Shown here in pieces: positions 2,883 to 52,362 of a stretch of 64,000 nucleotides of DNA (positions are counted from its first letter, which is position 1; every line of letters begins with the position of its first letter). The stretch covers positions 3,952,001-4,016,000 of the forward strand of contig NZ_CP022985.1 of assembly GCF_003425985.1 (NCBI RefSeq). The letters run 5' to 3'. The notes below the pieces were generated by a model that saw only the letters and a list, made by a program, of their open reading frames with translations, did no database searches and had not been told where the DNA came from. Both the position numbers and the translations under genes were made by a program. Origin of the DNA: Mariniflexile sp. TRM1-10. GTDB taxonomy: Bacteria > Bacteroidota > Bacteroidia > Flavobacteriales > Flavobacteriaceae.

Positions 2883-3314
2883 TATTATTTTTGGAATCCA
2901 ATAATTTCCAAGTTCAAGTTTTAAATGATTATATTCCTTCAACTTGTCTTCTATAGATTTATTGTAAAATAACGAGTAAATTTAAATAATTTATAGACAT
3001 GAATTAGAATTAGTGTATAAAAGCATAAATAAATTATACTTTTTTTTTAGATTAAACAAAAGTACTTATTGTATTTAGTAATTTCTAAATGCTAAAATGG
3101 ATTTCCTATCAAGTTAAAATTAAGCTTTCAAAAGGCGGTCTTTTTTATTTAAAAATGCGATATTTGTGCTGTAAATTTGCGCAAGGGATTGCAGCGGCAT
3201 CCTTTTTTATGTGGTATTATTATCGAGAGATTCTTTAAGTACATATAAAAAAGATATAGCGGAAAGCCCGACCTTGTTTTTTCAAGGGTGCGCCCTAAAA
3301 CTAAATAACTAATT
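2883..3314. other. Gene-free AT-rich stretch with the promoter of the small membrane protein/ettA operon
   Basis: No coding frame is supported here. A TAnnTTTG element (TAAATTTG, 3172-3179) matches the Bacteroidota -7 box and would give a leader of about 125 nt in front of the gene at 3315; no TTG box sits at the proper spacing. The rest is simple AT-rich sequence. Confidence 0.4.
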
Positions 3315-11769: not shown

Positions 11770-12060
11770 TTGAGCTTGTTTAAATATTTTAACTTACTGA
11801 TAATCAATATCGGTTTCGACAAGCTCCTTTAGATTTGTTTTTTATAAATTTAAGAAAGGAAATGGTATTAAAATAGCCTGTCATACAGAGCTTGTCGAAG
11901 TATTAGCCTGTCGAAGCTATAAAGAAGAAGTGCCAGTAATGGACTTCGACAAGCTCAGTCTGACAAACTAAACATCATTTTGTATTGCTGTTTTTAGAAT
12001 AAAAATGATACCTACCAAGGACGTTTTTTAAATAAAGGACTTCAACAAGCTCCTGGCATT
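11770..12060. repeat. Cluster of interspersed palindromic repeats (TTCGACAAGCTC family)
   Basis: At least four copies in both orientations of the word ACTTCGACAAGCTC are present, followed by a TGACA-type tail. Inverted arms lie at 11772-11779/11819-11826; the others are 11876-11904 (reverse), 11905-11968 (a longer foldback ending GGACTTCGACAAGCTCAG) and 12037-12056. The 11905-11968 copy also matches 52295-52340 in its interior (AGCCTGTCGAAGCTATA, then AGAAGTG, then GGACTTCGA), so this is one element family and not just shared arms. No gene lies in the 450-bp gap before the insertion sequence. Confidence 0.8.
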
Positions 12061-12132: not shown

Positions 12133-12163
12133 GGTATTCGACAAGCTACCATTGACGTATTTG

Positions 12164-13471
12164 CTAAACCGCTGTTTTATAGCTAATTGACAAACCAAGT
12201 TCTCTTGCCATTTTCATAATGTTCTTTTGTTTATTAAACAAGATCTTCTCCTCATAATCTTTGATTCCCTTCTCTACATATGACAGTCCTTTAACAAATA
12301 GCTTCCAATAGAGCTCTGCCAGTTTTCTTGCCATTGCCTTTATTGCCGGTGATGCCCCTTTCTTTGCCCTTATCTTTCTGCCAAAAGCACCCAATGCAAT
12401 TTTCTTGCTGTTGAGCAGGCTCGTGGCCGCTTGCTTAAATATCAGGCCGGCCTTTGGTTGTCCTTTAGCCTTATAGTTTTTTTTCATCTTGCCCGAATGG
12501 TGCTGTTTTGGCGCCAGTCCCAACCAGGAAGTAAAATGCTTTTCTGTTTTCCATTTATGTAAATCAGTCCCTATTTCCGATAGGAGCTGCATCCAATTAT
12601 AATCTGTTATACCGGGTAGGACCGTAGCATCTTTGCCTTCAAATATTTGCAATAGATAACGGTCCATTCCTTCTATATTTGGTTTGTGGTGCCTCACGTT
12701 TTTTCGTGGAGTTGCCTTATTTGATACTTTAGGCCGGTTTGCCCCCATCTTTTTAAGGACTTCTTCCATTTTCAGATCACAACCGGCAATTTGTTGTTGA
12801 TAAAAATCATAGCACACCACTGCTTGGCCCAAAGCAAATAGCCCTGCTTCATTGTAGTGCCCTTTCAAGGATTTAAGGATCAGTTCCTTTTTTGTTTTCA
12901 ACACACTCCCATGGCATAGCTTTACCAAAACCCCGGGATCCCTTTCGCCCTTTAAGATCGCCCTGATTATTTTCAATCCACTTACCCCGTGAACTTGGTC
13001 CAGAACTTCTTTTAGCCGAACGTTCATCAGGGTCAGTGCTTTTTGCATATGGTTAATATGCATAGCAGCACTACGGATGTGATCTTCGCGCAGGCGTTGA
13101 TAGCTCCTTAGTTCATGTACCAGTTCATCTGCAACAAAACAACGGTTCAACAAACCATAGCTGTGCAATTGCTGTATCCATTGACAGTCCTTTACATCGG
13201 TCTTTCTGCCTGGAACTTGTTTTGTGCTCCTGCCATCCACCAACCATACATCGATGCCTCTTGCCTTCAATATATCATAGAGGATGACCCAATACACTCC
13301 CGTGGCTTCCATGGCCACTGAGGTTACATTGTTTTCCTCTAAGTAAGATACCGCCTGTTCCAGATCTGATGTGAAGGTATCAAAACTGCGAACCTCCTTA
13401 TCTTCAAGACCTATGAAGATTTTTTTGGCTCCGATATCGATCCCTCCTGCGTTTTTCCTGATTTTTTTCAT
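12164..13471 (-). CDS. IS110-family transposase/recombinase (DEDD + Ser)
   Basis: A 435-residue protein. The N-terminal RuvC-like DEDD domain shows D12 (GGIDIGAKK), E55 (AMEATGVYW) and D92/D95 (GRKTDVKDCQW). A helical middle section follows, then the C-terminal Tnp domain with the proposed catalytic Ser326 in KQHHSGKMKK. Full length and no frameshift, so the enzyme is probably intact. IS110 recombinases work with a bridge RNA that pairs with target and donor DNA. The stop codon lies only 16 bases from the element end, so nearly all non-coding sequence is upstream, as in the IS110 (not IS1111) arrangement. Confidence 0.95.
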   Translation of the reverse strand: MKKIRKNAGGIDIGAKKIFIGLEDKEVRSFDTFTSDLEQAVSYLEENNVTSVAMEATGVYWVILYDILKARGIDVWLVDGRSTKQVPGRKTDVKDCQWIQQLHSYGLLNRCFVADELVHELRSYQRLREDHIRSAAMHINHMQKALTLMNVRLKEVLDQVHGVSGLKIIRAILKGERDPGVLVKLCHGSVLKTKKELILKSLKGHYNEAGLFALGQAVVCYDFYQQQIAGCDLKMEEVLKKMGANRPKVSNKATPRKNVRHHKPNIEGMDRYLLQIFEGKDATVLPGITDYNWMQLLSEIGTDLHKWKTEKHFTSWLGLAPKQHHSGKMKKNYKAKGQPKAGLIFKQAATSLLNSKKIALGAFGRKIRAKKGASPAIKAMARKLAELYWKLFVKGLSYVEKGIKDYEEKILFNKQKNIMKMARELGLSISYKTAV

Positions 13472-13697
13472 CCTACATTATTTTTTAAAATCACACCCAG
13501 AAAATTTTTATGCTTGCTAGACTACCATTCGGGCATTATTATAAATAAGCACCATAATCGCTACCCCTATTTTCTGAAAACCATACTCAACCACAGGTAT
13601 ATAAACACTACGCTGTGCCTCGGAAATATTGTGACTTTTTGTTAAACTTGCACAAAATACGTCATCGCATTCGCTAGTTAAAAACTTTAACAAAAGT
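13472..13697 (-). ncRNA. Candidate bridge RNA region of the IS110 element
   Basis: This is the non-coding leader between the element end and the transposase start. In the RNA sense it begins with a 13-bp stem (arms 13686-13698 and 13633-13646, one bulged A). It then has GGTTGAG (13586-13592), identical to the target half-site plus core, and AATGGTAG (13522-13529), identical to the other element end plus core. The second match lies in the loop of a 6-bp stem (GTGCTT/AAGCAT). The order 5' stem, target-like loop, donor-like loop matches the IS621 bridge RNA as published. Exact RNA ends, and the guides for the opposite halves, are not resolved. Confidence 0.65.
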
Positions 13698-13754
13698 CTC
13701 AACCTGACAAATTAAATTTAAAAGGATTTTTTAGACAGCCTCTTTTTATTTCAC

Positions 13755-52149: not shown

Positions 52150-52362
52150 TAATACAAATAGCTACTAGTAAATAGGCAAATCAACGAATAAACAATAACA
52201 GATAATCGATAATGTTGGTAATTAGGACTTCGACAAGCTCAGTCTGACAGGGGAATATATAAAAAGTAAGTGTATAAATAAGTTTGTCAAGCTGAGCCTG
52301 TCGAAGCTATATAAAAGAAGTGTCGGTAACAGGACTTCGACTGCGCTCGGACTGACATTTGT
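52131..52362. repeat. Mixed repeat region: word repeat plus palindromic family
   Basis: The first part (52131-52208) repeats the CAATTAATAATT, CTACTAGTAAATAG and CGAATAAACAATAACAGATAATC words seen after bcp. The second part has the intact site GGACTTCGACAAGCTCAGTC (52225-52250), a reverse copy TTTGTCAAGCTGAGCCTGTC (52283-52307), and GACTTCGACTGCGCTCGGAC (52333-52352). The 52295-52340 interior matches 11905-11950. Confidence 0.8.

Follow-up and report, generated by a model that had tools for sequence, protein, structure and literature searches.

A predicted bridge RNA with a swapped guide layout and a displaced donor guide in an IS110-family element of Mariniflexile sp. TRM1-10

Bridge RNAs mark a recent class of RNA-guided DNA enzyme. 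In a 64,000-nt stretch of the Mariniflexile sp. TRM1-10 genome (the whole of which we call the window), two short words in the leader of an IS110-family element had been picked out from the letters alone as guides of such an RNA, one matching the target and the other the element end. This raises the question whether the words are guides, and which DNA they would read. We put the probability that a bridge RNA encoded in the leader guides the recombinase of this element at about 85%; a folded donor is the most speculative part of this explanation.

The element, its enzyme and its predicted RNA

Both words were found exactly where the original prediction had placed them: CTCAACC at 13586-13592 recurs at 13698-13704, and CTACCATT at 13522-13529 recurs at 12146-12153. 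The chances assigned to these matches (about 1% and 0.3%) are correct for single words by our own arithmetic, but they ignore the choice of words. The element ends that had been proposed along with them are borne out by the host genome, in which all 13 copies share the left and the right end with 0 mismatches across 1,552 nt, and in which the rejoined site TGTCAGGTTGAGCTTGTCGAA is present intact 19 times. AG is the sole sequence common to both junctions of the 13 copies, which means that there is no target duplication beyond the core dinucleotide. On the minus strand, the order at the insertion is left target TTTGTCAGGTTG, core AG, left end (ACTTTTG...), right end (...CGTCAATGGT) and right target CTTGTCGAA; the right end extends 18 nt beyond the recombinase stop codon (Table 1).

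The window recombinase is matched by NCBIfam NF033542 (E 7.1e-61). Residues D11, E54, D91, D94 and S325, which align to the IS621 catalytic residues, are invariant in 25 aligned relatives. A single-sequence phmmer search with the window protein found no IS110 structure, whereas a profile of the 25 relatives matched the IS621 structure 8wt6 (E 3e-14). Judged by its enzyme (a predicted DEDD RuvC-like domain with a C-terminal Tnp domain that carries the catalytic serine) and by the predicted RNA upstream of it, the element is a member of the IS110 family.

For the RNA we aligned 34 leaders (the alignment set), namely that of the window copy and those of 33 of 80 loci, the closer ones with a readable leader. 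The 32 pairs of the predicted structure are standard in 92.0% of 1,082 cells, compared with 78.4% after shuffling, and cells changed on both sides number 185 against a shuffled mean of 58.6. Double changes occur in 21 pairs (shuffled mean 17.6; 9 of 500 shuffles reach 21), and the structure score drops in all slid registers. A GTGCTT/AAGCAT stem that had been drawn around the donor guide is not supported. The conserved GGUGC is instead partnered by GCCC (13553-13549 with 13534-13531), the varying pair being A-U in 22 and G-C in 12 of the 34 leaders, and this pairing places the donor guide on the 3' side of the internal loop.

A covariance model built from homologous elements had been suggested as a check. 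Our model of this type, made from the 34-leader alignment, gave 13 matches in the host genome, one per copy and upstream of the gene (150 of 2,531 candidates scored), as well as a full-length match in each of the 48 further loci supplied to it (E 2.8e-31 to 1.7e-5). According to the sequence records, these loci come from Bacteroidota, Chlorobiaceae, Verrucomicrobia, Proteobacteria, a Leptospiraceae, a Eubacterium and others. They are 48 of 57 further loci; the RNA-model tests were done without L041, L057, L070, L077-L080, L091 and L092. The leader has no matching family in Rfam. Elsewhere in the window, a Flavo-1 RNA at 3174-3277 (+; 59.6 bits) is the only Rfam match at gathering score. At G428:C1:401200-401337, a bridge RNA match has no recombinase match listed nearby, and a partial recombinase at 688417-689538 has no RNA match listed; the two are possibly halves of one element split by rearrangement.

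Table 1. Features of the element, its predicted RNA and its target in the window
Feature	Position	Strand	Basis
IS110-family element, including one core dinucleotide (AG, minus strand)	12146..13697	-	13 identical genome copies
Recombinase, 435 aa, DEDD_Tnp_IS110 and Transposase_20	12164..13471	-	Pfam PF01548, PF02371
Left target GTCAGGTTG and core AG	13698..13708	-	GTCA at the same spacing in 30/31 targets
Right target CTTGTCGAA	12137..12145	-	flanks of 12 of the 13 copies
Structured core of the predicted bridge RNA, with a closing stem and one arm each for target and donor binding	13493..13634	-	compensatory changes in 34 elements
Target-arm apical hairpin, TAGTG ... CCTG	13594..13610	-	invariant in 34 leaders
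Donor-arm apical hairpin, GGUGC...GCCC	13531..13553	-	34-leader alignment
Donor-arm stem, 3' strand	13497..13504	-	pairs with 13578-13570
Left target guide (LTG) GGTTGAG, target loop 3' side; matches left target and core	13586..13592	-	covariation
Left donor guide (LDG) AATGGTAG, donor loop 3' side; matches right element end and core, 12153-12146	13522..13529	-	covariation
X, donor loop 5' side (GTAGCGATT); same-sense copy of left-end site 13677-13669, 7/9 here	13556..13564	-	covariation
X site in left end (CTAGCGAAT)	13669..13677	-	best match to X
Y, variable target loop 5' side; candidate right target guide (RTG) for the top strand of core and right target	13611..13619	-	pooled register test
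Inverted repeat in the left end, GTTAAA...TTTAAC, separating core from X site	13677..13691	-	inverted-repeat search
Left subterminal inverted repeat TGACGTATTT, matching the right end over 10 bp	13655..13664	-	end comparison
Right subterminal inverted repeat AAATACGTCA	12153..12162	-	end comparison

Target and donor guides

When all RNA columns were compared with the left-flank columns, the four best pairs lay on one same-sense diagonal through 13592-13589, in the LTG. The identities along this diagonal were 29/31, 28/31, 29/31 and 23/31 (expected: 11.5, 14.5, 14.0 and 12.7), counts that depend on left-end boundaries placed by eye in the alignment set, partly with the guide in view. Two other tests covered wider regions, of 40 nt and 142 nt. 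In a sliding 9-mer test, each element's own DNA was compared with the DNA of other elements. The main peaks in the alignment set were LTG with the left flank (z 10.7, n=31), X at 13564 with the left end (z 10.6, n=33) and LDG with the right end (z 7.4, n=29); the subsets of 31, 33 or 29 of the 34 arise because some elements are without a flank or a right end. The same three peaks were obtained in the further elements after extraction with the RNA model (LTG z 11.5, 48 elements; X z 9.1, 48; LDG z 9.9, 45). These further elements lie outside the alignment, but some of them closely resemble its members, L128 stands in tandem with L031 of the alignment set, and many of their leaders had been inspected before the permutation test of X.

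Permutations leave relatedness in, and a nearest-relative control removes part of it. Here, the element's own guide was preferred to the different guide of its nearest relative by 27:2 with 2 ties for LTG (31 elements), by 21:6 with 2 ties for LDG (29) and by 24:2 with 7 ties for X (33). The matches are exact over 7 nt in 18/31 elements for LTG and in 16/29 for LDG; in L032 a relative's donor guide fits the end better than the element's own does. Within the matched windows, transversions make up the majority of the mismatches (121, compared with 32 and 14 for the two kinds of transition), and among the transitions the wobble-compatible direction is the commoner (32 vs 14, p 0.0057).

Taking the two words as guides is thus borne out by covariation of both with their DNA partners (LTG in 31 elements and LDG in 29; 48 and 45 in the further elements). 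Leader words that stay fixed while targets and ends differ had been named as the result that would speak against guides; the opposite was seen, in that the guides change with their partners. Weak complementarity of the LTG region, 13596-13586 (-), to the upstream region was also seen in the 48 further elements (z 4.4), perhaps because the targets are palindromic repeats.

The targets of IS621 are of the REP type, and so are those of the element described here. All 13 copies are inserted in a REP-like repeat, 12 of them in the common site and 1 in TGTCAAGCTG-AG-CCTGTCG. The genome contains 126 intact occurrences of the repeat TGTCANNNNGAGCNTGTCGAA, 19 of them with GGTT, the bases of the RNA guide. 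Among the occupied repeat sites, 12 have GGTT and 1 has AGCT, and the occupancy is 12/31 for GGTT sites compared with 1/108 for other sites (Fisher p 2.4e-8). The sole occupied site without GGTT, at locus L013, is a diverged repeat (AAGCTGAG, CCTGTCG) whose left target differs from the guide in 2 bases, both wobble-compatible. However, repeats with GGTT may have a wider context in common, and therefore the occupancy in the host alone is no proof of guidance. Members of the TGTCANNNNGAGCNTGTCGAA family are also present in the window at 11879-11899, 11945-11965, 52229-52249 and 52285-52305, and among 100 listed of the 126 intact copies, two in opposite orientation are often separated by a few tens of bases.

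The guides for the opposite halves had not been found with confidence in the single sequence. The relatives reveal a weak candidate for the right target (Y) and a predicted donor guide that is not of the published type (X). Strict 9-mer and 7-mer matching in the alignment set found no right-target guide, and neither did the sliding test (best p 0.24). Pooling 62 elements, with the tandem elements L031 and L034 left out and 13/48 further elements not anchored, made one antiparallel register stand out, in which the base before TAGTG faces the first core base (z 4.6; 1/2000 permutations over all registers). A wobble-tolerant register test of 29 elements had preferred another register (28/1000 permutations), which we do not favour now. 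The 27 elements from the alignment set place that other register first (z 3.5) and the favoured one behind it (z 3.1), whereas in 35 further elements the canonical register adjoining the core is best (z 4.1) and nothing is seen at the register of the alignment set. Contiguous pairing in the window copy is limited to AGC/GCT (3 pairs). On these results, we rate Y as a plausible but weak candidate for the right-target guide.

A proposed second donor guide and a predicted fold of the joined ends

The covariation of X with a segment of the left end is of about the same strength as that between target guide and target. The best-matching site for X lies at a median of 20 nt (range 3-24) from the core and a median of 5 nt before TGAC (33 elements); the match is no better than 5/9 in L016 and L021 and 7/9 in the window copy. 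The match of X to its left-end site was not equalled in any of 20000 permutations among 36 further elements whose X sequences are distinct. For this test, 57 further loci gave 54 that were parsed and 51 that were kept, including several automatic parses that are clearly wrong (e.g. L053, L164). When the windows were shifted by 20-60 nt as a control, z ranged from -0.1 to 2.6; the one exception, 30 nt upstream (z 5.6), coincides with the LTG region. Among the transition mismatches of X, those of the wobble-compatible kind are the more frequent (21 vs 10, p 0.035), X matches of at least 6/9 (31/33) or at least 7/10 (21/36) being counted.

A canonical right-donor guide for the top strand was not found, as there was no RNA diagonal in the first 14 nt of the left end. 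The best complementary 9-mers to the left end in the alignment set were at 13511 and 13521 (z 4.6 and 4.0), and both were outside the six best complementary 9-mers in the further elements. This signal at 13521-13503 (-) may come from pairing of X with this 3' side of the donor arm in some elements, or from a remnant of a right donor guide.

Two other roles of X were rejected. As a right-target guide, X has no match to the right flanks. An arrangement with X and its left-end copy on one transcript fails on two counts: the two are of the same sense and hence unable to pair with each other, and a TAnnTTTG box stands between them in 7/34 leaders (0.7 expected). This box, of the Bacteroidota type, lies just upstream of the RNA (in L027, L028, L034, L037, L040, L087 and L090). 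It starts 19-23 nt before the end of the tested segment and would put the RNA start past the X site.

The inverted repeat between the core and the X site differs in sequence between elements (e.g. CCCATT/AATGGG, CCACG/CGTGG, AGATAAAA/TTTTATCT). The longest stem in the left end has a mean of 4.94, compared with 3.90 in shuffled sequences (p 1.6e-5, 33 elements), and in several elements the inverted repeat is no longer than in shuffles; the left flank has no stem excess over shuffles (31 elements). The subterminal repeat consists of TGACR as its left half and YGTCA as its right half, which ends 5 nt before the right core. Across 29 elements its length is 1-10 bp, most commonly 6 (10 bp in the window copy). 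Bases 5 and 6 of this repeat covary between the ends (29/29, expected 15.0, and 23/29, expected 10.6), whereas the corresponding bases of the target arm follow the element unclearly (15/27, expected 11.1, p 0.065, and 5/27, expected 6.8), which argues against protein specificity as the cause of the covariation.

With the subterminal repeats and the left-end inverted repeat, the joined ends can fold into a subterminal stem, an internal loop and a left-end hairpin. The subterminal stem is part of the minimum-energy DNA fold of 27/28 junctions (mean z -2.0). An element's own pair of ends folds better than chimeric pairs (0/5000 permutations in 28 elements of the alignment set), and this was likewise the case in 31 further elements, 17/48 being unused. 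The two sides of the internal loop are X' and LD' with the core. Their mean unpaired probabilities are 0.65 and 0.66, compared with 0.47 for the rest, and X' is more unpaired than the junction mean in 26/28 and LD' in 25/28 elements. X and LDG match both sides of the loop on one strand. Tandem copies of related elements (L031/L128 and L170/L171) bring a right-end/left-end junction into the chromosome.

We propose the following model. The leader would be produced as a bridge RNA whose matches form as RNA-DNA pairs, and the recombinase would cut at the core. At the donor, the subterminal TGACR/YGTCA repeats would pair the two ends, and the left-end hairpin would close the fold. The donor loop of the RNA would then bind a single strand on either side of the internal loop, contacting X' through X and LD' through LDG. 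The folded strand would replace the duplex as the donor; we infer its formation in the cell and its role as substrate. The target would be read as a normal double strand, with Y pairing weakly with the top strand of the core and right target. That this branch of IS110 recognizes its donor as a folded single strand or cruciform, and not as a linear double strand, is suggested by the sequence comparisons, and we hold it tentatively, at somewhat below even odds.

A bridge RNA of the ordinary kind might act on a linear double-stranded donor with LTG and LDG as its sole guides, in which case X would resemble the left end through a protein-binding word or an old duplication. LTG and LDG do suffice for ends and targets, and according to the text of PMC11208158, IS621 reads a double-stranded donor adjoining the core. 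We nevertheless consider this unlikely: X varies among relatives yet matches its own left end in the nearest-relative control and in the permutation test, its transition mismatches lean towards wobble, the guides stand in the opposite order to those of IS621, and the top-strand right-donor guide was not found. A double-stranded donor with X as an extra contact may be an alternative to the folded one.

Still less probable, and in our judgement quite remote, is an action of the left-end X copy as RNA, an antisense transcript of which would pair with X and regulate the transposase or the bridge RNA, as with Asr9 of ISPpu9. Pairing with an antisense RNA would lead to the same covariation and the same bias towards wobble, and ISPpu9 of Pseudomonas putida, which also resides in REPs, is described with an antisense RNA to its leader (PMC8450116). 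However, regulation of this kind leaves unexplained both the position of the X site between the hairpin and the subterminal repeat and the folding of the joined ends. Chance or inherited similarity can practically be dismissed, even though single 7-8 nt words are expected in about 1% or fewer of such leaders and the relatives share ancestry, because the same three peaks occur in two sets of elements, the target flanks are host DNA that is not inherited with the element, the occupancy test lies within one genome, and for LTG the column scan, the nearest-relative control and the further elements refute it.

Comparison with known systems and significance

We compared the element with the text of the reports on IS621 (PMC11208160, PMC11208158) and IS1111 (PMC11187229), figures and supplements aside. 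Like IS621, it has a DEDD and Tnp recombinase with the catalytic residues D, E, D, D and S; the left end, which precedes the recombinase gene, likewise encodes the predicted RNA, with two arms that carry target and donor internal loops, and a bottom-strand guide would serve the left target and the left donor with the core included (PMC11208160, PMC11208158). Unlike the arrangement described for IS621, LTG and LDG occupy the 3' and not the 5' sides of their loops, and the candidate RTG is on the 5' side (PMC11208160, PMC11208158). The two donor guides of IS621 are described as reading the two strands of a linear duplex (PMC11208158). Here, no top-strand right-donor guide by the core was found, and in its place there is X, in the same sense as a left-end site past the inverted repeat. 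The core on the guide strand is AG here and CT in IS621, and the subterminal repeats exceed the 2-3 bp described for the IS110 group (PMC11208160, PMC11208158).

If the weak Y is a guide, a top-strand target match lies 5' of the bottom-strand one, as described for the IS1111 seekRNA systems ISEc11, ISPa11 and ISKpn4 (PMC11187229). As in IS1111, there are subterminal inverted repeats, and one terminal extension comprises 7 nt outside the repeat, the core counted (PMC11187229). The repeats are mostly 6 bp here (10 in the window copy), compared with the 7-17 bp given for IS1111 (PMC11187229). Unlike IS1111, in which the RNA-bearing non-coding region is described as downstream, the predicted RNA is upstream of the recombinase, and the other extension is 30-38 nt long and contains an inverted repeat and the X site, whereas 3 nt are described there (PMC11187229). 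By description, the element also resembles ISPpu9 of P. putida, which is likewise an insertion sequence within REPs and has a leader that is long and structured; unlike the leader here, that of ISPpu9 is tied to antisense regulation of the transposase and not to guides (PMC8450116). On the texts compared, the predicted donor arrangement fits neither the IS621 nor the IS1111 description. No displaced donor guide was described in the titles and abstracts of the open-access literature that we searched, which leaves subscription papers and preprints largely outside.

The bridge-RNA mechanism has been described mainly from IS621. Our results add well-sampled relatives with a swapped guide layout, in which one donor guide matches a displaced, hairpin-flanked site. 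Because a single genome contains 13 identical copies and 126 repeat sites that are intact, target choice is directly testable in this host. If the folded donor holds, it would represent RNA-guided recognition of DNA secondary structure and explain what the subterminal repeats are for; the shape of the DNA would then contribute to donor specificity in addition to its sequence, and donor loops could be designed differently.
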